A DNA stretch of 64,000 bases, taken from a bacterium. Lineage in GTDB: Bacteria > Actinomycetota > Acidimicrobiia > Acidimicrobiales > Bin134. Position numbers and translations under genes: made by a program. The stretch is from positions 62,001 to 126,000 of the forward strand of contig JAPPAP010000019.1 in assembly GCA_026705465.1 (NCBI GenBank), in the 5' to 3' direction. Positions 6,215-62,906 of this stretch are shown piece after piece (positions within the stretch are counted from its first letter, which is position 1; each line of letters begins with the position of its first letter). Under the pieces are notes generated by a model. The model made no database searches and was not told where the DNA came from. It was given only the letters and a program-made list of their open reading frames with translations.

Positions 6215-7417
6215 ATGGCAGACCTGCCGTTCAAGGTGTTCGACGCCGACAACCACTACTACGAAGCCACAGACGCATTCATCCGCCACATCGACCCGGC
6301 GATGAAGAAGCGCTGCATGCAATGGGCCAACATCGACGGCAAGCAGCGCTTGCTGGTGGCGGGAAAGATCAACCGGTTCATCCCCAATCCCACCTTCGAC
6401 CCGGTCTCCAAGCCGGGCGCGCTTCAGGACTTCTTCCGGGGCCGCAACAAGGACGGTGTGGATGTGAAGACCATGTTCGGCGAACTCGATCCCATCTCCG
6501 AGCGCCCTGAGTACCGCGACCGCGACAAGCGCCTGGAACTCATGGACGCCCAGAACGTCGAGGCGGCCCTGTTCTTCCCCACCTTGGGAGTGGGCATGGA
6601 GCAGTCGCTGCGCCACGACCCACCGGCAGTGGTGGCGGCCTTTACCGCATTCAATCGGTGGCTGGCTGAAGACTGGGGTTTCGCCTACCAAGAGCGGATC
6701 TTCGCCGCTCCGGTGATCTCGATGATCGATGTGGACTGGGCCGTTTCCGAGGTGGAATGGGCTTTGGCCAACGACGCTCGCATGGTGGTTATGGTCCCCG
6801 GACCCGTGCCCACCACCGATGGCGGAAGCCGTTCACCGGGCATGCCCGAGTACGACCCGGTGTGGGCCCGCATTGCCGAGGCCGGCATCACCGTGGGCAT
6901 GCACGGAGGCGACGGCGGCTTGCACGAATACAACGAGATGTGGGAGCCCACTGAGGACTTCCAGTCGTTCCGCACGTCAACGTTCAAGCAGATCACCGGC
7001 CACGACCGTCAGATCTTCGACACGATGGCCGCCATGGTGTGCCACGGGCTGTACGACCGCCACCCCAACCTCCGGATTGCCTGCATCGAGAACGGGGGCA
7101 TGTTCGCTCCCCGCTTGGTAGAGGAGCTCAAGATTGCCTACGGCAAGATGCCCCAGGAATTCCGCACCGACCCAGTTGACCAGTTCTTGAACCATGTGTG
7201 GGTATCGCCCTACTACGAGGACGACATCGACCTCATCAAAGAGACGATTGGCGCCGACCACATGCTGTTCGGCTCCGACTACCCCCACGCTGAGGGATTG
7301 GAAGTGCCCACCGACTTCATCTACGACATCCCCAATTTCACCGATGCCGAGGCCAAGGCCATGATGCGGGACAACGCGTGGGACGTGATCACCCCTCGCT
7401 CCGCGCTAGCCGCCTGA
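6215..7417 (+). CDS. Amidohydrolase family protein (Amidohydro_2 / ACMSD-like)
   Basis: This is a 400-residue TIM-barrel protein of the amidohydrolase 2 group, which includes metal-dependent hydrolases and decarboxylases. The N-terminus reads FDADNHYYE, the variant of the metal-binding strand common in actinobacterial members. Further motifs are a central MHGGDGG, CIENGG, and the C-terminal LFGSDYPHAEG that carries the conserved metal-site Asp. GAGG precedes the ATG. It heads a probable operon with the 7461, 8357 and 8848 genes, with gaps of 43, 29 and 11 bp. The substrate cannot be read from sequence. It keeps more of the metal-site motifs than its neighbour at 7461, which lacks them. Confidence 0.85.
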   Translation: MADLPFKVFDADNHYYEATDAFIRHIDPAMKKRCMQWANIDGKQRLLVAGKINRFIPNPTFDPVSKPGALQDFFRGRNKDGVDVKTMFGELDPISERPEYRDRDKRLELMDAQNVEAALFFPTLGVGMEQSLRHDPPAVVAAFTAFNRWLAEDWGFAYQERIFAAPVISMIDVDWAVSEVEWALANDARMVVMVPGPVPTTDGGSRSPGMPEYDPVWARIAEAGITVGMHGGDGGLHEYNEMWEPTEDFQSFRTSTFKQITGHDRQIFDTMAAMVCHGLYDRHPNLRIACIENGGMFAPRLVEELKIAYGKMPQEFRTDPVDQFLNHVWVSPYYEDDIDLIKETIGADHMLFGSDYPHAEGLEVPTDFIYDIPNFTDAEAKAMMRDNAWDVITPRSALAA

Positions 7418-7460: not shown

Positions 7461-8327
7461 ATGGGCATGCCCACCGACATTCCGATCATCGACACCATGG
7501 TCGGCTTTCCCAAGCCGGATTTCTCCACCTACGACTTCATCCGAGCCCAGACCAAGGACACCCAGACGTCCGATGAGTTCGACTTCCCGGTGGAGTACAT
7601 GTTCAAGGGGGTACCCAAAGAGCTGTACGGCACCGATGACGACCCGGTTCAGGTCGTGCTCAAGGAGATGGATCGATTCAACATCGAGATGGCCCTTGTA
7701 TCCTGCGAGGACGAGACTGGCCAGCGGGCGCTGAAGGACTTCCCCGAGCGGTTCATCCCCTCCATGAACGTGGAGCCCAACGACGTGATGGGAGAGGTGC
7801 GCCGCATGGATCAGCTCCACCGGGAATGGGGCGTCAAAGCGGTAGGGGCATTCCCGGCCGGCTGCTTCCCCCAGGTGCCGATCGACGACGCCAAGTTCTA
7901 TCCGATTTATGCCAAGTGCGTAGAGCTCGACGTGCCCATCTTCGTATGCGCCGGCGTGCCTGGCCCCCGGTTCCCGTTCTCTCCCCAGCACGTAGAGCGC
8001 ATCGACCGGGTCATGTACGACTTCCCCGAGCTCACCTTCGTGACCCGCCACGGCTGTGAACCGTGGGAAGACCTGGCGGTGAAGCTCATGCTGAAGTGGC
8101 CCGGCCTGCACTACTCCACTTCGGCGTTCGCCCCCAAGCACTACCCCGAAGCCATCATCCGCTACGCCAATACCCGAGGCGCTGAAAAGGTGATCTACGC
8201 CGGCTACTTCCCCATGGGCCTGTCGCTGGAACGGATCATGACCGATATGAAAGACGTGCCCTTCCGAGACAAGGTGTGGCCGGGATTCCTACGGGAGAAC
8301 GCCCGCCGTGTTCTCAAGCTGGACTGA
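7461..8327 (+). CDS. Amidohydrolase-fold protein lacking canonical metal ligands
   Basis: This 288-residue relative of the amidohydrolase 2 group is second in the operon that starts at 6215. The first strand reads IIDTMVGFPKPD where active members have a D/H-x-H motif. The usual C-terminal GSDYP is replaced by IYAGYFPMG, losing the Asp. A central TRHGCEPW, resembling the substrate-pocket HGG/PW motif, is kept. I infer that metal binding is weakened or lost, so the protein may be a partner subunit or a metal-independent enzyme. An AAAAGGA ribosome site precedes the ATG. Function is unknown. Confidence 0.75.
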   Translation: MGMPTDIPIIDTMVGFPKPDFSTYDFIRAQTKDTQTSDEFDFPVEYMFKGVPKELYGTDDDPVQVVLKEMDRFNIEMALVSCEDETGQRALKDFPERFIPSMNVEPNDVMGEVRRMDQLHREWGVKAVGAFPAGCFPQVPIDDAKFYPIYAKCVELDVPIFVCAGVPGPRFPFSPQHVERIDRVMYDFPELTFVTRHGCEPWEDLAVKLMLKWPGLHYSTSAFAPKHYPEAIIRYANTRGAEKVIYAGYFPMGLSLERIMTDMKDVPFRDKVWPGFLRENARRVLKLD

Positions 8328-8847: not shown

Positions 8848-10059
8848 ATGGCGAATCAACCAGTTCGTACCCTGCCGCCCGCTGGGGCTATCCAAGACGA
8901 GCGCGAGATCGAAGCCGTGCTCGAGGTTCTGCGCTCAGGGGACCTCAACATCGGCGAGAACGTGGCCCGCTTTGAGGACGAGGTGTCCACGATTTTGGGT
9001 AAGGAGCGGGGGGTGATGGTCAACTCTGGCTCCTCTGCCCTCCTGCTGGGCATCAGCCTTCTCGACTTGGAGCCGGGCGACGAGATCATCACCTCGGTGC
9101 TCACTTTCTCCACCGATGTGTCATCAATCATCCAACTGGGCCTAGTGCCGGTATTCGTCGACGTGGAACCCGACACCTTCCAGATCGACGTGAATCGGAT
9201 ACCCGAGATGATCGGCCCCCGCACCAGGGCCATCATGACCCCCAACCTGATGGGCAACTGCCCCGATTGGGACGTGATCCGGGCCATTGCCGACGAGCAC
9301 GGACTCAAGGTGATCGAGGATTCCTGCGATGTGTTGGACACCCGCCTGCGGGGCACTCGCATCGGCGCCCGCAGCGACATCAGCCTTACCAGCTTCGCCA
9401 TCTCCCACTCGCTCACCTGCGCGGGCAACGGCGGCATGGTGGCCATGGACGATCCTGAGATGCACGACAAGTGCCTGACCCGGCGGCGCTGGGGTCGGCG
9501 CTCAGAGTCGTACCTGTACGGCTCCCGCAAAGGACAGGACACTCGTTGGGGTCCGTTGGACGACGGCACCATGTACGACCAGATCTTCATCTTCGACGAT
9601 CTGGGCTACAACTTCGAGCCCTCCGAGCTGGGAGCGGCCTACGGGCTGGTGCAACTCAGCAAGCTCCAAGAGTTCAATGCCCGCCGCAGCCACGCTTTCG
9701 ATCGCTACAACGATCTGCTGGTCAACCACACCGACAAGGTGATCCTGCCCCGCACCACCCCTGAACTGGAGACCACCTGGATGCGCTACGGGTTCATCCT
9801 TCGCCCTGAGTCGGGGCACGACCGCACCGATGTGCAGAACTTCCTCGAAGACCGCAACGTGCAGTCCCGCATGGTCTGGACCGGAAACATCCTGCGCCAG
9901 CCGGGGTTCTCGGACATCCAACATCGGGCCCCTGCTGACGGCTTCCCCAACGCCGACCTGGTGATGGACCACGCCCTTTGTATCCCCACCCACCACGGTC
10001 TGGGTTCAGACGACATTGGCTATGTGGTTGACACCCTCTCGGAGCTTTTCGGGGGTTGA
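8848..10059 (+). CDS. DegT/DnrJ/EryC1 PLP-fold protein, His-type (ColD/RfbH-like dehydratase candidate)
   Basis: This is a 403-residue fold-type I PLP protein of the sugar aminotransferase family. It has the phosphate loop NSGSSA (59-64) and the cofactor Asp in VIEDSCD (Asp158). In the strand that normally carries the Schiff-base Lys it reads SFAISHSLTCAG, placing His187 at the Lys position. Among characterised relatives this His is a hallmark of GDP-4-keto-6-deoxymannose 3-dehydratase (ColD) and RfbH, which dehydrate rather than transaminate. WGRRSE also resembles RfbH. The Cys pattern of the RfbH iron-sulfur site is not obvious. It is last in the 6215-10059 operon. No sugar-nucleotide genes lie nearby, so the substrate is open. 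A close paralog is at 58871. Confidence 0.85.
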   Translation: MANQPVRTLPPAGAIQDEREIEAVLEVLRSGDLNIGENVARFEDEVSTILGKERGVMVNSGSSALLLGISLLDLEPGDEIITSVLTFSTDVSSIIQLGLVPVFVDVEPDTFQIDVNRIPEMIGPRTRAIMTPNLMGNCPDWDVIRAIADEHGLKVIEDSCDVLDTRLRGTRIGARSDISLTSFAISHSLTCAGNGGMVAMDDPEMHDKCLTRRRWGRRSESYLYGSRKGQDTRWGPLDDGTMYDQIFIFDDLGYNFEPSELGAAYGLVQLSKLQEFNARRSHAFDRYNDLLVNHTDKVILPRTTPELETTWMRYGFILRPESGHDRTDVQNFLEDRNVQSRMVWTGNILRQPGFSDIQHRAPADGFPNADLVMDHALCIPTHHGLGSDDIGYVVDTLSELFGG

Positions 10060-10060
10060 T

Positions 10061-10435
10061 TCAGCCGCCGGCGAACTGTCCCATGTCGAAGTAGTCCGAC
10101 CAGCGGGCGATGCGCCCGTCGCGCACTTCGAATACGCCGCATACCGGCAACGCCAGCTGGCCATCGCCGGTGTTGATGTAATCGGTTCGCTCGTTTAGAA
10201 CCACGTTGCCATTGGCCGCTTGATGGTGGGTCTCAAACACAATGCCTCCGGACGTGGCGAAGAACCCCTCCAAGAACGCCCGAATGGCCTCGGCACCCTC
10301 TAAGGGATCCATCGGCACGTTGTGATAGACGGCATCGTCGGTGAAGTAGGCCATCAGCTCGTCGGCATCGCCATTAGCCCATGCCGCGCAGAACGCACTC
10401 ACCAGCTCGCTGGGATCGGTCGGCAGATCGGACAT
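10061..10435 (-). CDS. Limonene-1,2-epoxide hydrolase-like / SnoaL-fold protein
   Basis: This is a 124-residue cone-shaped alpha+beta barrel protein. The residues used by limonene epoxide hydrolase can be matched: Tyr and Asn in VYHNVP, Arg and Asp in ERTDYI, and the final Asp in WSDYFD. It is therefore likely a cofactor-free epoxide hydrolase rather than a generic SnoaL protein; the substrate is unknown. The start is ATG 10435 because AGGAGAG lies just upstream; an in-frame start at 10513 has no such site. It ends one base from the stop of the convergent DegT-fold gene. Confidence 0.8.
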   Translation of the reverse strand: MSDLPTDPSELVSAFCAAWANGDADELMAYFTDDAVYHNVPMDPLEGAEAIRAFLEGFFATSGGIVFETHHQAANGNVVLNERTDYINTGDGQLALPVCGVFEVRDGRIARWSDYFDMGQFAGG

Positions 10436-55766: not shown

Positions 55767-55847
55767 CCCGCCATTCTCCCTGACGGGCTCGGTGATTCCG
55801 CGCACCCCTTCAGCAACAGGCAAAGTATGGGGATGGAAGGCCAGTTG

Positions 55848-56987
55848 ATGATTTCCGCCGACTGCCACGCCAGCGCGCGGCCTGACACCTATCGCCAGTA
55901 CCTGGATCCCGGCTATGAAGAGGCCTACGACCAGTGGCTGGGCGACACCGAGATGAAGAGCAAGCGCAAAGCCGAGCACACCGGGGCGGCGATCTACAGC
56001 GACCAGGCCCTCGAGGAGTTCGGGGAAATCGAAGAGGTGGCCTCGGGCGGAGTCGACGGGGGCTGGGATTCGGCCCGGCGGCTGCGTGAGCTCGAGGCCG
56101 ATGGGACCGTCGCCGAAGTGCTGTATCCCGGCGCGGGCGGCCCGACCGTCACCCCCTTCGACGTGGGGCTGATGACCTACCAGTACGAGCAGGACCCGGC
56201 CCTGTGGCTGGCCGGTTGCCGGGCCTACAACCGCTGGTTGGGCGACTTCTGCAATGATGCGCCCGGACGCCGGGCCGGGGTGGGCCTGATCACGGTGGAC
56301 GACATCGACATCACGGTGGCCGAGATCCAGCAGATGCGCGAACTGGGACTGTTCGGAGGCGTGCTGCTGTGCAGCGGCACCGGCGACAACCCCCTGTACA
56401 ACCACCCCCGCTACGACCCCGTGTGGGCGGCCTGCGCCGATGAGGGCCTACCGGTTCACACTCACTCGGGCTGGACCCCCAACTACGGAGATTTTACCGG
56501 CTCGCTGGGCATCTTCCTCACCGAGATCTCGTGGTACGCACACCGCCCGTTCTGGCTGCTCATGTGGTCGGGAGCCTTCGAGCGCCACCCCGGCCTGCGC
56601 ATGGTGATGAACGAGCAGGGTTCCACTTGGGCTCCGGCGACACTCGACGAACTGGACCACTATTACGAGCTGCGGATGTTCGACCAGTTGCGTCGAGATC
56701 TACCGCTGAAGCCCAGCGAGTACTTCCGCCGTCAAGTGTTCCTGGGCGCGGGGTTCACCGATACCGACGAGGTCGAGGTGGTGGACCGACTGGGGGCCGA
56801 CCATCTCATGTGGGGCTCCGACTACCCCCACATCGAGGGCACGTGGCCTCGCTCACAGGAGATGCTGGACCAGCAGTTCGCAGGGAGGTCCGATGACGAG
56901 GTGGCCCGCCTCGTGGGGGGGAATGCCGCCGATCTCTACGGATTCGACAAAGAGGCTCTTACCGAGCTCAGCACGAGCCTGGCCTGA
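55848..56987 (+). CDS. Amidohydrolase family protein (Amidohydro_2)
   Basis: This roughly 379-residue TIM-barrel protein of the same group as the 6215 gene begins MISADCHAS, with DxH ligands. It has HTHSGW in the middle and MWGSDYPHIEGTWP with the conserved Asp at the end. ATG 55848 is chosen because GGAAGG lies 7 nt upstream, over ATG 55827 or 55833. It keeps all the metal motifs, unlike the 7461 protein. The substrate is unknown. It is divergent from the small membrane protein and convergent with the DUF1214 gene. Confidence 0.85.
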   Translation: MISADCHASARPDTYRQYLDPGYEEAYDQWLGDTEMKSKRKAEHTGAAIYSDQALEEFGEIEEVASGGVDGGWDSARRLRELEADGTVAEVLYPGAGGPTVTPFDVGLMTYQYEQDPALWLAGCRAYNRWLGDFCNDAPGRRAGVGLITVDDIDITVAEIQQMRELGLFGGVLLCSGTGDNPLYNHPRYDPVWAACADEGLPVHTHSGWTPNYGDFTGSLGIFLTEISWYAHRPFWLLMWSGAFERHPGLRMVMNEQGSTWAPATLDELDHYYELRMFDQLRRDLPLKPSEYFRRQVFLGAGFTDTDEVEVVDRLGADHLMWGSDYPHIEGTWPRSQEMLDQQFAGRSDDEVARLVGGNAADLYGFDKEALTELSTSLA

Positions 56988-57003: not shown

Positions 57004-58116
57004 TCAGCGCAGGTCAGCGAGCTTGACCAGTTTGGGTTCGATCCGCTCCACCGGGCCGGTCGGCAGGAAGAAACGCCAGAAGATGCTGCCGGAGGGGCGG
57101 CCCTCAGTGTCCAGCCAGTTGTACACGCCGGGGTCTTCGTGGGCGATGACCATCTTGAACGTGCCGTCGGCTTCCAACGTGGTGTTGGCCCGGTTGCGGC
57201 TGGTGGTTCGGTTGCCGTAGTCATAGGTCTGACCGGCCGCGGTCCACAAGCACACATTGCCGAACTTGCACTCCGGCCACCGCCCGGTCATCACCAATGC
57301 CTCGTCGGGGGCGAGCACATAGCGGCCCATGGTGTAGTAGGCGTCGAAGGCAGCGAAACCCATGGTGCCGGGCGGCTGGGGGTCGGGCAGGACGTTGGGC
57401 TCGCGGCTCACCCATGTCGGCAAGGGATAGGTGCCGGGAATGGGCTGCTGGAGGGTCTTGCCCAGCACGTGGTTGGACACCCGGTTGATGGCCTCGGCCA
57501 CCGTCTCGTCGTTCCACAGCGTGGCCGGCCCCACCGGCGACAGGCACTCAATGTTGAGGGGGATGTGGAGGGACTCGTCGGCCGCCGAGGGCTTGGGAAC
57601 CTCGAAGTAGTGACGGGTGGTGATCCGGCCCGACTCGGGAGGCAGATCCAGCCAGTTCCGATCCCGGGGCTCGCCTCCGAGGAACACCTCGTAGTTGCCG
57701 TCGGCGTCCACGTCGATGTCGTCGTCGTTGAGCACTCCGCCGGTGCCGGTGGCATATCGGCCCTCCGACGAGCCCAGCTCCACCGTGAACGACGTGTAGA
57801 CCGCTCCGGCCAGATTGCCGGTGACCCGATAGACCAGATCGCTGCTGACCGGGGCCTCGAAGTACACCGCATCGGCGTTGTCGCCGGTGAACTTGCGGGT
57901 AGGCGACACGATGCGGCGCCACACCGGCCGCTCGGGGTCGAACTCGGCGTGGGCGAACAGGGCCGACTGGAGGATATGCAGCACCAGCCGATGGCTGTCG
58001 GCGACGTCCTGTTCGCCGGACACCCCCCACTCCTCGCCGCAGAAGCGGTCGCTCACTTGCGAAAGGGCATCAACCATGTCGGCCCACGCGGCCTGGGTCT
58101 TGGTCTGAGCTGCCAT
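57004..58116 (-). CDS. DUF1214 domain-containing protein
   Basis: This 370-residue protein has no clear catalytic motif. The N-terminal half is helical with ALSQVSDRFCGEEWGVSG. The C-terminal part is beta-rich with RASPTRK-like basic loops and PGVYNWLDTEGRPSG near the end, the DUF1214 pattern. It may sit in lipid or steroid-related metabolism, as family members often do, but the function is not known. GGGGGAG precedes the ATG. Confidence 0.8.
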   Translation of the reverse strand: MAAQTKTQAAWADMVDALSQVSDRFCGEEWGVSGEQDVADSHRLVLHILQSALFAHAEFDPERPVWRRIVSPTRKFTGDNADAVYFEAPVSSDLVYRVTGNLAGAVYTSFTVELGSSEGRYATGTGGVLNDDDIDVDADGNYEVFLGGEPRDRNWLDLPPESGRITTRHYFEVPKPSAADESLHIPLNIECLSPVGPATLWNDETVAEAINRVSNHVLGKTLQQPIPGTYPLPTWVSREPNVLPDPQPPGTMGFAAFDAYYTMGRYVLAPDEALVMTGRWPECKFGNVCLWTAAGQTYDYGNRTTSRNRANTTLEADGTFKMVIAHEDPGVYNWLDTEGRPSGSIFWRFFLPTGPVERIEPKLVKLADLR

Positions 58117-60099: not shown

Positions 60100-61185
60100 A
60101 TGCGCGGCGCCGTTTTGCATACCAGCCCCGGCGAACTTGTCGTCGAGAGCCTCACTGTCGACAAGCCCAATCCCAACGAGGTGCTCATCAGCACTTCCCA
60201 CGCCGGTCTATGCCACTCCGACCTGCACTTCATGGACGGCCATTGGCCGGTGGCGGAGTCGATGGTGATGGGCCACGAGTCGGCCGGCGTAGTGGCCGCG
60301 GTGGGCGAGGATGTGACTTATGTGAAGCCCGGCGACCACGTGATCACCTGCGTGTCGATGTGGTGCGGGGTATGCCGCACCTGCCTTCAGGGCAAGCCCT
60401 ACCTGTGCCTCGACGCCGACTCCATGCGCTCGGGCCGCCCCACCCCGTCGCTGCGGTTCGACGACGGCCGGGGCTGCATAGCCTTCGCCGGTCTGGGCTC
60501 GTTCGCCGAGGAGCTGTTGGTACACGAGCGGGCGGTGGTCAAGATCCGTGACGAAATGCCCCTCGACCGGGCCGCTCTCATCGGCTGCGGGGTCACCACC
60601 GGGCTGGGCGCGGTCATGCGCACTGCGGCGGTGCCCGCCGGTTCGAGCGTGGTGGTGATCGGCTGCGGCGGCATCGGCCTGTCGGCCGTGCAGGGCGCCC
60701 GCATCGTGGGGGCCACGCCGATCATCGCGGTGGATCTGGTGGCCTCCAAGCTGGAGATGGCCCGCACCCTGGGTGCCACCCACACGGTGAACGCGTCTGA
60801 GACCGATCCCGTGGCCGCAGTCCACGAGATCACCGGGGGCGGGGCCGACTACTCGTTCGAGGCCATCGGACTGTCGGCAACCGCCGAGCAAGCCTGGGCC
60901 ATGATCGGCATAGGCGGCACGGCCACGGTCATCGGAATGCTGCCCATGACCAGCCAGGTGACCATCCCCGGCGGGGAGATCATCTTGAGCGAGAAGAAGC
61001 TCCAGGGGTCGCTGATGGGCGGCAACCGCTTCCGCCTGGACATGCCCAAGTTCATCGACCTCTACCTCGATGGGCGGCTCAAGCTGGACGAGATGGTGTC
61101 GGCCACCATCGGCATCGACGAGGTGAACGACGGCTATGCGGCCATGAAGGCCGGCGAGACCCTGCGCTCGGTCATCGCCTTCTAG
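60100..61185 (+). CDS. Zinc-dependent alcohol dehydrogenase (MDR)
   Basis: This 361-residue dehydrogenase has the catalytic zinc motif CHSDLHFMDGHW and GHESAGVV. The structural zinc cysteines are in WCGVCRTCLQGKPYLC, and the nucleotide fold is VVIGCGGIGLSAVQG. AAGGAG lies 6 nt before ATG 60100, which settles the start. It is close in sequence style to the 21907 dehydrogenase but not identical. It sits second in the 58871 operon, 23 bp after the DegT-fold gene. Confidence 0.92.
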   Translation: MRGAVLHTSPGELVVESLTVDKPNPNEVLISTSHAGLCHSDLHFMDGHWPVAESMVMGHESAGVVAAVGEDVTYVKPGDHVITCVSMWCGVCRTCLQGKPYLCLDADSMRSGRPTPSLRFDDGRGCIAFAGLGSFAEELLVHERAVVKIRDEMPLDRAALIGCGVTTGLGAVMRTAAVPAGSSVVVIGCGGIGLSAVQGARIVGATPIIAVDLVASKLEMARTLGATHTVNASETDPVAAVHEITGGGADYSFEAIGLSATAEQAWAMIGIGGTATVIGMLPMTSQVTIPGGEIILSEKKLQGSLMGGNRFRLDMPKFIDLYLDGRLKLDEMVSATIGIDEVNDGYAAMKAGETLRSVIAF

Positions 61186-61219: not shown

Positions 61220-62017
61220 ATGGGACAACTCGACGACCGAGCAGCGGTAGTCACTGGCGGTGCCGACGGCATCGGCTACGGCATCTGCCGGAGGTTTGCC
61301 GCCGAGGGAGCCAAACTGCTGGTCACCGACATCGACGGGGAGGCCGCCGAGCGAGTAGCCGGCGAGTTGCGGGATGAGTTCGGCGCTGATGCACGGACCA
61401 TGCGGGTGGACGTGGCCGACAAGGACGAGGTGACCGCCATGGTGGACGCCGCGGTTGACCACTGGGGACGTCTGGATGTGCTCATCAACAACGCCTGGGG
61501 CGGCGGAGAGCTGAGCCGGGTGGAGATCAAAACCGACCAGCTCATGAACGACGCGATGCACGTGGGGCTGTACGGACCGCTGTGGGCCATGCAGGCCGCG
61601 TTCCGGCCCATGCGCGATCAGCAGTATGGCCGGATCGTGAACCTGTGCTCGCTCAATGGGGTGAACGCCCACATGGGAACCCTGGAATACAACTGCGCCA
61701 AGGAGGCGCTGCGGACCCTGAGTCGCACCGCGGCCCGGGAATGGGCGCCCTATGGGATCGTGGTGAACGTGATCTGCCCCGGAGCCAAGACCGCGTCGGC
61801 GCGTCGGGTGGAGCAGATGATGCCCGATCTGATCCGCAACGCAGAAGCAGCCAACCCCATGGGCCGGATGGGCGACCCCGAGGGCGACATTGCCCCGGTG
61901 GCTTTGTTCTTGTCGTCGGAGGATGCCCAGTACCTCACCGGCAACACGCTCTACGTGGACGGCGGCAGCCACATCAACGGGGCCAGCTGGGTCCCCGATC
62001 TTCCAGAGACTGTGTAA
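61220..62017 (+). CDS. Short-chain dehydrogenase/reductase
   Basis: This 265-residue SDR has TGGADGIGYGIC, NNAWGGGE, catalytic Ser in LCSLNG and the Tyr-Lys pair in YNCAK. The C-terminal YLTGNTLYVDGGSHINGA is typical. AAAAGGAG precedes the ATG. The substrate is unknown. It is third in the operon, 34 bp after the alcohol dehydrogenase. A duplicated hairpin segment follows its stop. Confidence 0.92.
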   Translation: MGQLDDRAAVVTGGADGIGYGICRRFAAEGAKLLVTDIDGEAAERVAGELRDEFGADARTMRVDVADKDEVTAMVDAAVDHWGRLDVLINNAWGGGELSRVEIKTDQLMNDAMHVGLYGPLWAMQAAFRPMRDQQYGRIVNLCSLNGVNAHMGTLEYNCAKEALRTLSRTAAREWAPYGIVVNVICPGAKTASARRVEQMMPDLIRNAEAANPMGRMGDPEGDIAPVALFLSSEDAQYLTGNTLYVDGGSHINGASWVPDLPETV

Positions 62018-62111: not shown

Positions 62112-62906
62112 ATGAATCCGGATCGCTCGATGGCTGGCAAGGTGGCCATCATCACCGGAGCGGGGCCGGGGGTGGGCCGGGCCTGCGCCCTGACCATGGC
62201 CGCCGACGGAGCCGACCTGGCGCTGGCCGCTCGCCGGATCGAGGCGCTTGAGGCGCTGGCCGCCGAAGTGTCGGAGGCCACCGGGCGGCGGGTAGTGGCG
62301 ATTCCCACCGACATCAGCGATCTCGCCTCGGCTGCGGCCCTAGCCGACACCGCCGCGGCCGAACTGGGCCGGGTGGACGCGGTGGTGAACGTGGCTACTG
62401 CCGGGGGTGCCCGTGCCGCGGTGACCGACATCGACTGGGACGACTACCGCTATTCCTTCGAGCTGAATGTGCTCGGCACCTTGGAGGTGAGCCGCCGGGC
62501 CGCCGATCACATGAAGGCCGTAGGCGGGGGCTCGATCGTGCAGATCGGCACGCTCAGCACCCACTCGGTGCCCGAGAAGATGGCCATCTACACCTCCACC
62601 AAAGCCGCCCTCCAGACCGCGTCAATGGTCATGGCCCGGGAACTGGGGCCGCACAACATCCGGGTGAACATCGTCACGCCGGGCTACATAACCGGCGACA
62701 ACCTGGACCGGCTGTGGGGCAACATCGCCGAGCAAACCGGCAAGACCGCCCAGCAGGTGTCCGATCGAGCGGCCAGCGCCGCAGCTCTGAACCGCCACGT
62801 CGATCCTGAGGACATCGCCGAGGCGGTGCTGTTCTTGGCCTCCGAGCGGGGCCGGGGGGTCACCGGCCTAGAGATCCGGGTCGACGCCGGCCAGCTGATC
62901 GGGTGA
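62112..62906 (+). CDS. Short-chain dehydrogenase/reductase
   Basis: This 264-residue SDR has TGAGPGVGRACA, the catalytic Ser in GTLSTHS and the YTSTK pair. The C-terminal GRGVTGLEIRVDAGQ is typical. ATG 62112 is chosen because AAGGA lies at 62103-62107; ATG 62067 (in the duplicated segment) is an in-frame alternative. It is the last gene of the 58871 operon and converges with the class III aminotransferase gene. The substrate is unknown. Confidence 0.9.
   Translation: MNPDRSMAGKVAIITGAGPGVGRACALTMAADGADLALAARRIEALEALAAEVSEATGRRVVAIPTDISDLASAAALADTAAAELGRVDAVVNVATAGGARAAVTDIDWDDYRYSFELNVLGTLEVSRRAADHMKAVGGGSIVQIGTLSTHSVPEKMAIYTSTKAALQTASMVMARELGPHNIRVNIVTPGYITGDNLDRLWGNIAEQTGKTAQQVSDRAASAAALNRHVDPEDIAEAVLFLASERGRGVTGLEIRVDAGQLIG

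Follow-up and report, generated by a model that had tools for sequence, protein, structure and literature searches.

What does a DegT-fold protein do when histidine stands where aminotransferases of this fold have their Schiff-base lysine, and when the genes beside it are not those of sugar-nucleotide metabolism? The question is raised by P0001, a 403-residue protein encoded in a 64,000-nucleotide stretch of DNA, analysed as a whole and hereafter called the window. The initial annotation had read it as a possible PLP/PMP dehydratase of a new substrate, with a His residue known from ColD and RfbH, lying next to two amidohydrolases and an F420-type reductase. It described a single gene and overlooked a second His-type copy, P0006, about 50 kb away. 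The features on which the argument depends are the following (loci of relatives are numbered with L, and genomes of the window's genus with G).

6215–7417, plus strand: P0004, a PF04909 protein of 400 aa whose best characterised PDB relative is PtmU3 (profile and PDB search)
7461–8327, plus strand: P0003, a shorter PF04909 protein of 288 aa, with homologues also near the His-type gene in L050, L055 and L095
8357–8836, plus strand: P0002, an F420H2-dependent quinone-reductase-family protein (PF04075/TIGR00026; profile matches)
8848–10059, plus strand: P0001, a DegT-fold His-type PLP/PMP protein of 403 aa (intact ORF, ATG start)
9022–9042, plus strand: phosphate-loop motif NSGSSAL of P0001, residues 59–65 (sequence and alignment)
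9319–9321, plus strand: codon of Asp158, the cofactor Asp, within VIEDSCD (residues 155–161), invariant in every alignment group
9406–9408, plus strand: CAC codon of His187, at the position of the Schiff-base Lys (sequence; alignment column)
10061–10435, minus strand: P0005, a SnoaL/limonene-epoxide-hydrolase-like protein, convergent with P0001 (profile match)
55827–56987, plus strand: PF04909 protein near P0006, with PtmU3 and DitZ as best PDB matches
57004–58116, minus strand: DUF1214-family protein (weak match, 7.3e-07), between the preceding PF04909 gene and P0006
58871–60076, plus strand: P0006, the second His-type paralogue, 401 aa, with His185 and 52% identity to P0001 (sequence)
60100–61185, plus strand: zinc-type alcohol dehydrogenase adjoining P0006 (profile matches)
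61220–62017, plus strand: SDR dehydrogenase (profile match)
62130–62906, plus strand: a further SDR-type dehydrogenase (assigned from its sequence, with syntenic genes grouped in SDR cluster c1)

P0001 matches the DegT/DnrJ/EryC1/StrS profile PF01041 over residues 16–397 with 280.8 bits (gathering threshold 19.8; 2.3e-83), but fails the criterion of a DegT-type aminotransferase, namely the Schiff-base lysine. Its His187 lies within SFAISHSLTCAGNGG, and at the corresponding alignment position E1 (3bcx) and ColD (2gms) have H, and 8/8 Lys-type rows have K. All 96 family rows carry His there (the 92 rows of the derived clade described below, which include near-identical rows from the window's genus, plus L112, L113, L114 and L116), as do 17/17 E1/RfbH rows, 3/3 ColD rows and two further His-type rows. 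The dN/dS of P0001, calculated for one pair only (against L010), is 0.044, indicating purifying selection, and that of P0006 is 0.054–0.164 against three loci. Given this selection and the retention of His throughout the family, the residue is neither a chance substitution nor a sequencing slip. Lysines kept in more than 60% of the derived rows are limited to K52, which starts the strand leading into the phosphate loop according to the secondary structure of the model, and K272, whose position is also K or R in E1, ColD and Lys-type rows; judging from the alignment, no other conserved lysine appears able to replace the missing one. The cofactor residues S60, G61, D158, S182 and N255 are retained in the family. 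The histidine, the cofactor Asp and the phosphate loop were all read correctly at the outset.

Sequence searches place P0001 nearest to E1. In phmmer against the PDB, E1 (3bcx, 3.4e-60) precedes a sugar transaminase (7b0d, 6.9e-43) and ColD (2gms, 7.3e-37), and the best NCBIfam model for the two window copies is RfbH (NF011936), with 276.7 and 261.3 bits, below the cut-off of 423. An AlphaFold2 model built from 51 aligned rows (pLDDT 93.5, pTM 0.92) also finds E1 first, both with Foldseek (1.9e-40) and with VIA-align (Z 50.5, rmsd 2.1, 382 residues aligned). The structural margin is small, since ColD follows with Z 48.3 and Lys-type enzymes reach 48.6, and it is the tree rather than the structure that discriminates between families. 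Each of five preset groups formed a single clade in a 94-row tree. A second tree of 69 out of 99 rows, rooted on five Lys-type rows, gave bootstrap/SH-aLRT supports of 100/100 for the His-type enzymes, 99/86 for E1 together with the new family, 100/99 for the new family and 100/99 for its derived part (44 rows). Both window copies fall in this derived clade, away from the Lys-type enzymes, whereas ColD forms its own clade (100/100, three rows only) outside E1 plus the new family, with P0001 not inside it. The tree and the structure model asked for by the initial annotation thus both came out on the side of the His-type dehydratases, although E1/RfbH, and not ColD, is the nearest relative. Taken as sequence evidence, these data indicate that the clade of P0001 and P0006, sister to E1/RfbH, is real and conserved, has no name of its own and would lack an iron–sulphur cluster. 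An ordinary aminotransferase is ruled out by the His column, the tree and the structure match; a true RfbH by the missing FeS cysteines, the score below cut-off and the lack of a CDP-glucose 4,6-dehydratase. The trees also contained a deeper His-type DegT group (L141 and L147, with SFYIAHNIQ-AGEMG and a cysteine-rich stretch), outside both ColD and E1.

The absence of the cluster is seen in the residues themselves. Column 219, an FeS ligand, is Cys in 17/17 E1 rows and Ser in 92/92 derived rows, only C160 remains of the [2Fe-2S] cysteine set, and the GRDCWC of E1-type rows has become GRRSE. Family members nevertheless share N137, C160, H187, W215, R217, G346 and N347 with E1 and ColD, residues that are mostly absent from Lys-type rows. 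In the family, the GEGG motif that follows the catalytic position is longer by one residue and has lost its Glu (Asn, Thr or Gly instead). Loss of the FeS cysteines disfavours the electron route of E1 and SpnQ and makes glutamate-driven recycling of the ColD kind likelier. ColD itself (GDP-4-keto-6-deoxymannose 3-dehydratase; 2gms, 3b8x) also combines His for Lys with the absence of an FeS cluster, and by analogy its glutamate-recycled mechanism is likely to be the model for the P0001 family, even though ColD forms a separate clade and no GMD or colitose genes lie near family members. With E1/RfbH (CDP-4-keto-6-deoxyglucose 3-dehydratase; 3bcx) the family shares the best sequence and structure match, the His and the sister-clade position, but differs in the missing [2Fe-2S] cysteines, the score under the RfbH cut-off and derived loci devoid of CDP-sugar genes.

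A further comparison is provided by FeS-free RfbH-like proteins at the base of the family, from Roseibium (L187), Leisingera (L188), Sinorhizobium (L186), Sphingomonas (L112) and Taylorbacteria (L116), which fall in the same 100/99 clade and share the motif SH-x-(I/L)-(T/N)-x-(A/G)-G-x-GG. Unlike the derived clade, they are found beside rfbF–rfbG and polysaccharide genes, and D90, W344 and the RRSE motif are missing from those of their rows that were examined. Six rows of the tree are basal, and genes for glucose-1-phosphate cytidylyltransferase and CDP-glucose 4,6-dehydratase adjoin five of them: both rfbF and rfbG models are above cut-off in L112 and L116, the pair is present by annotation in L187 and L188 and by tblastn in L186, and neither marker was found in L113. 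D90, R175, W344, S88, E220 and other residues are fixed in the derived clade but not shared by E1, ColD or most of the CDP-linked basal rows, which, read from the sequences, is as would be expected after a change of substrate.

The gene neighbourhoods changed between the two parts of the family. Among the 64 derived loci, 42 span at least 14 kb, and CDP-sugar genes lie near none of these; the genus near-copies L038–L045, L080, L081, L083 and L085 had been set aside beforehand. The count relied on blast seeds drawn chiefly from L099, L089, L095, L112 and the window and misses diverged equivalents. Within three positions of the His-type gene at 22 chosen derived loci (126 proteins), SDRs (16) and PF04909 proteins (13) were the most frequent in a Pfam census, which also counted luciferase-like proteins (7), MarR regulators (6) and acyl-CoA dehydrogenases (5); P450s likewise occur among the derived-clade neighbours. 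The control consisted of 18 Lys-type DegT loci (101 proteins) in 12 genomes where a His-type locus occurs as well, and showed the expected sugar setting, with epimerase/4,6-dehydratase (5), glycosyltransferase (5 and 4) and hexapeptide transferase families; the census gives the top 25 families, and one missing from the control list has at most two members there. The derived clade has moved from sugar into catabolic gene contexts. No clear-cut catabolic cluster surrounds the gene at some derived loci (L052, L067, L069 and L077).

Rhodococcus, Tomitella and Nocardioides carry the gene in a tight operon of the steroid-side-chain type. The operon encodes a steroid 3-ketoacyl-CoA thiolase (NF005889, 592.7 against a cut-off of 515), a lipid-transfer protein above the cut-off of NF005892, an Ltp2-like aldolase (6ok1, 3.9e-168) with ChsH-type hydratase parts, a FadD nearest to CasI (606.8, below that model's cut-off of 900), several acyl-CoA dehydrogenases, one of double length, and SDRs. 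This operon accompanies 7/12 His-type loci versus 0/18 Lys-type loci of the same genomes, and 10/42 of the long derived loci; as these are all orthologous versions of a single arrangement, found in one clade of the tree and three genera, they amount to about one independent observation. In Nocardia carnea (L089) the gene adjoins KshA (4qdf, 6.7e-189) and a KstD-like protein, KshA being near the gene in 1/42 derived loci and KstD-like proteins in 3/42. The KstD-like dehydrogenase of L089 (11354–13459) is a fusion protein with a flavin reductase domain of the HsaB type.

In the window, P0001 is the last of four closely spaced co-directional genes, after P0004, P0003 and P0002. P0002 is a protein of the F420H2-dependent quinone-reductase family; P0004 and P0003, first read as amidohydrolases, are PF04909 proteins, and the activity of P0004 may be another. 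The overall best PDB match of P0004 is the uncharacterised 4dzi (3e-112); PtmU3 is matched by P0004 at 4.4e-21 and by the 55827–56987 protein at 1.5e-37 (DitZ also, 1e-29), with the motifs ADxHxxE (P0004) and GSDYPHxEG shared in the PtmU3 alignment. PtmU3 and DitZ are diterpenoid-pathway proteins. According to PMC10811679, PtmU3, AibH2 and SfbO are dinuclear oxygenases within PF04909. Since PtmU3 is there a dinuclear monooxygenase, P0004 and the 55827–56987 protein may by homology be oxygenases. The long/short pair P0004/P0003 recalls AibH2/AibH1, and a comparable pairing accompanies the gene at L050, L055 and L095. Around the two window copies, blast detected no steroid markers to a distance of about 10 kb (at most 4 kb downstream of P0006).

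P0006 has a conserved cluster of its own, with the PF04909 protein, the ADH and the two SDRs and, beyond the window, luciferase-like, P450 and acyl-CoA dehydrogenase genes. The downstream order, much alike in other members of the genus, is ADH, SDR, SDR, aminotransferase, luciferase-like, P450 (NCBIfam), TIM-barrel protein and acyl-CoA dehydrogenase; the DUF1214-family gene is also conserved in syntenic loci of the genus. P0001 and P0006 are the only full-length PF01041 matches in the source genome (3.11 Mb, 95.7% complete), where three more weak matches cover about 50–105 profile positions each. Orthologues of P0001 occur in 18/22 genus genomes, in pieces in two of the 18 and with 90–97% identity when full length, and P0006-type copies in at least 15/22; among the best 80 loci of the family search, L038, from an Acidimicrobiia metagenome bin, is 96% identical to P0001. 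In L047 (837–4486) a P450 gene stands between a P0001-type and a P0006-type gene in a single row, accompanied by a divergent MarR-like gene; this row perhaps reflects two successive steps or a heteromer, and because of it the two window paralogues may serve one pathway.

The genus was also searched for the means of supplying possible substrates. No KshA orthologue was found in 21 genus genomes, 12 of which give only Rieske matches of 31–40% identity, and CDP-glucose 4,6-dehydratase (TIGR02622) is found in 0/21. GDP-mannose 4,6-dehydratase (GMD) is present in 20/21, the copy of the source genome being on another contig, so that the substrate of ColD could be made. The initial statement that there are no sugar-nucleotide genes is thus correct for the vicinity of P0001, but a genome without a sugar-nucleotide pathway would be a wrong description, GMD being present. 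The genomes G003, G009 and G016 (3/21) have neither His-type copy. An expansion of SCPx/Ltp2-like thiolase-fold proteins was seen in the genus (G000–G020): there are 17 in the source genome, 10–19 in 18/21 genomes and 0–3 in G003, G009 and G016, which are also among the smallest genomes, making size a confounder. The missing KshA and the lack of steroid markers near the window copies mean that classical steroid-ring breakdown is not indicated in this genus, where the substrate is just as likely to be a terpenoid or some other ketone. The notion that the whole family is steroid-specific was dropped for the same reasons.

The reading that we favour, with confidence somewhat above even, is that P0001 and P0006 are PMP-dependent dehydratases of alpha-hydroxyketones in catabolism, acting most likely on a polycyclic, steroid- or terpenoid-like ketone. 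Its parts differ in strength. By analogy with the characterised enzymes, PMP dehydration with recycling by glutamate is quite probable, and gene context makes it equally probable that the substrate is not a nucleotide sugar; for a steroid- or terpenoid-like substrate, the same kind of evidence gives about an even chance in the window and a better one for the Rhodococcus operon. The proposal of a dehydratase with a new substrate thus gained from tree, structure and gene context, the novelty of the substrate depending on context. An iron–sulphur-free, CDP-hexose-associated side branch of E1/RfbH would have been recruited into catabolic clusters, where the alpha-hydroxyketone would be generated by an SDR or ADH together with an oxygenase encoded nearby, either a P450 or a PF04909 protein of the dinuclear-oxygenase-like kind. 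Enzyme-bound PMP would then form a ketimine with the ketone, His187 would take the C4' proton and the adjacent hydroxyl would be lost. Hydrolysis would release PLP and an enamine, the latter giving the deoxyketone and ammonium, and glutamate would convert PLP back to PMP. This ketimine/His/glutamate cycle is modelled on ColD, the mechanisms of E1, ColD and SpnQ being reviewed in PMC8987622.

The most serious competitor, which we nonetheless hold to be unlikely, is an orphan nucleotide-sugar 3-dehydratase of the ColD or E1 kind, with partner genes elsewhere in the genome and catabolic neighbours that are incidental. The rfbF/rfbG genes adjoining basal relatives and the GMD of the genus speak for such an enzyme, but CDP-glucose 4,6-dehydratase is missing from all 21 genus genomes, GMD is kept in G003 and G016 without the His-type gene, and that gene is absent where Ltp/SCPx-type proteins are few (with small genome size as confounder). 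The 0/42 derived loci with CDP-sugar genes, and D90, W344, R175 and E220, fixed in the derived clade but replaced in E1, in ColD and in most basal rows linked to CDP-sugar genes, also count against it. Catabolism could instead be directed at something smaller: a PMP dehydratase of a free sugar, a cyclitol or a small polar hydroxyketone such as inosose would suit the plasmid copy L185, with iolC, Gfo/Idh/MocA and sugar-phosphate isomerase genes about 8 kb away, and the xylose-isomerase-like TIM-barrel protein downstream of P0006. This seems rather improbable, as the acyl-CoA dehydrogenases, Ltp2/FadA5, P450 and PtmU3-like neighbours found elsewhere fit hydrophobic acyl-CoA chemistry.

Two further possibilities concern the chemistry itself. 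In a half-transamination with His as base, as in SpnQ, the product would be an amine instead of a deoxyketone; SpnQ without its reductase does transaminate, as stated in PMC8987622, and the Glu of the GEGG motif is lost in the family. The same review reports, however, that ColD and E1 show no transamination under the same conditions and that E1 H220K transaminates only non-catalytically, and we regard this outcome as very unlikely. A non-catalytic DegT-fold protein, whether sensor, regulator or inert half of a paralogue heterodimer, is barely credible: the adjacent P0001-type and P0006-type genes of L047 would suit a heteromer, but the cofactor residues are retained, the His is under purifying selection in both paralogues, and P0001 and P0006 are 50 kb apart in the window.

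If the catabolic alpha-hydroxyketone dehydratase is the correct reading, the breakdown of hydroxylated polycyclic compounds gains a B6-dependent step that removes a hydroxyl adjacent to a keto group. In the section of PMC8987622 on His-type PLP/PMP dehydratases, every enzyme discussed is biosynthetic and has a nucleotide sugar as its substrate. A search by title and opening of abstract found no literature joining DegT/PMP dehydratases with steroid, terpenoid or catabolic roles, a weak negative given that subscription papers were mostly outside its scope. Outside the DegT family, GenB3 belongs to a different, Lys-bearing aminotransferase class with a phosphorylated substrate, and Hsh3 and BaiE are cofactor-free SnoaL/NTF2-type enzymes without B6 chemistry. 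What GenB3, of gentamicin C-3',4'-dideoxygenation (PMC7941887), has in common with the proposal is PLP-dependent hydroxyl removal from a compound outside the nucleotide sugars; for the hydroxysteroid dehydratases Hsh3 and BaiE (PMC12175502, PMC9426597) it is hydroxyl removal in steroid metabolism. It can be suggested, though only tentatively, that the family provides the first B6-dependent dehydroxylase of steroid- or terpenoid-type ketones, a glutamate-driven product of an FeS-free former sugar-dehydratase lineage, widespread in actinobacterial and in some myxobacterial and proteobacterial catabolism.

A pattern search confirmed 541 stretches, with patterns that also fit other DegT proteins; the best 80 of these, which were read, represent Acidimicrobiia, Rhodococcus, Nocardia, Streptomycetaceae, Myxococcota and further groups. 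Annotated records name the family only “DegT/DnrJ/EryC1/StrS family aminotransferase”, a label that would be misleading for a widespread clade should the proposed function be true. As the operon is present in cultivable Rhodococcus, Tomitella and Nocardioides, the question of the substrate is directly testable. At the basal end of the family, the FeS-free RfbH-like enzymes of L187, L188 and L186 lie by rfbF–rfbG in alphaproteobacterial plasmid loci, and in L187 and L188 the gene is followed by a methyltransferase and then an NAD-dependent oxidoreductase; these three enzymes are possibly ColD-like CDP-sugar 3-dehydratases that need no E3 reductase.
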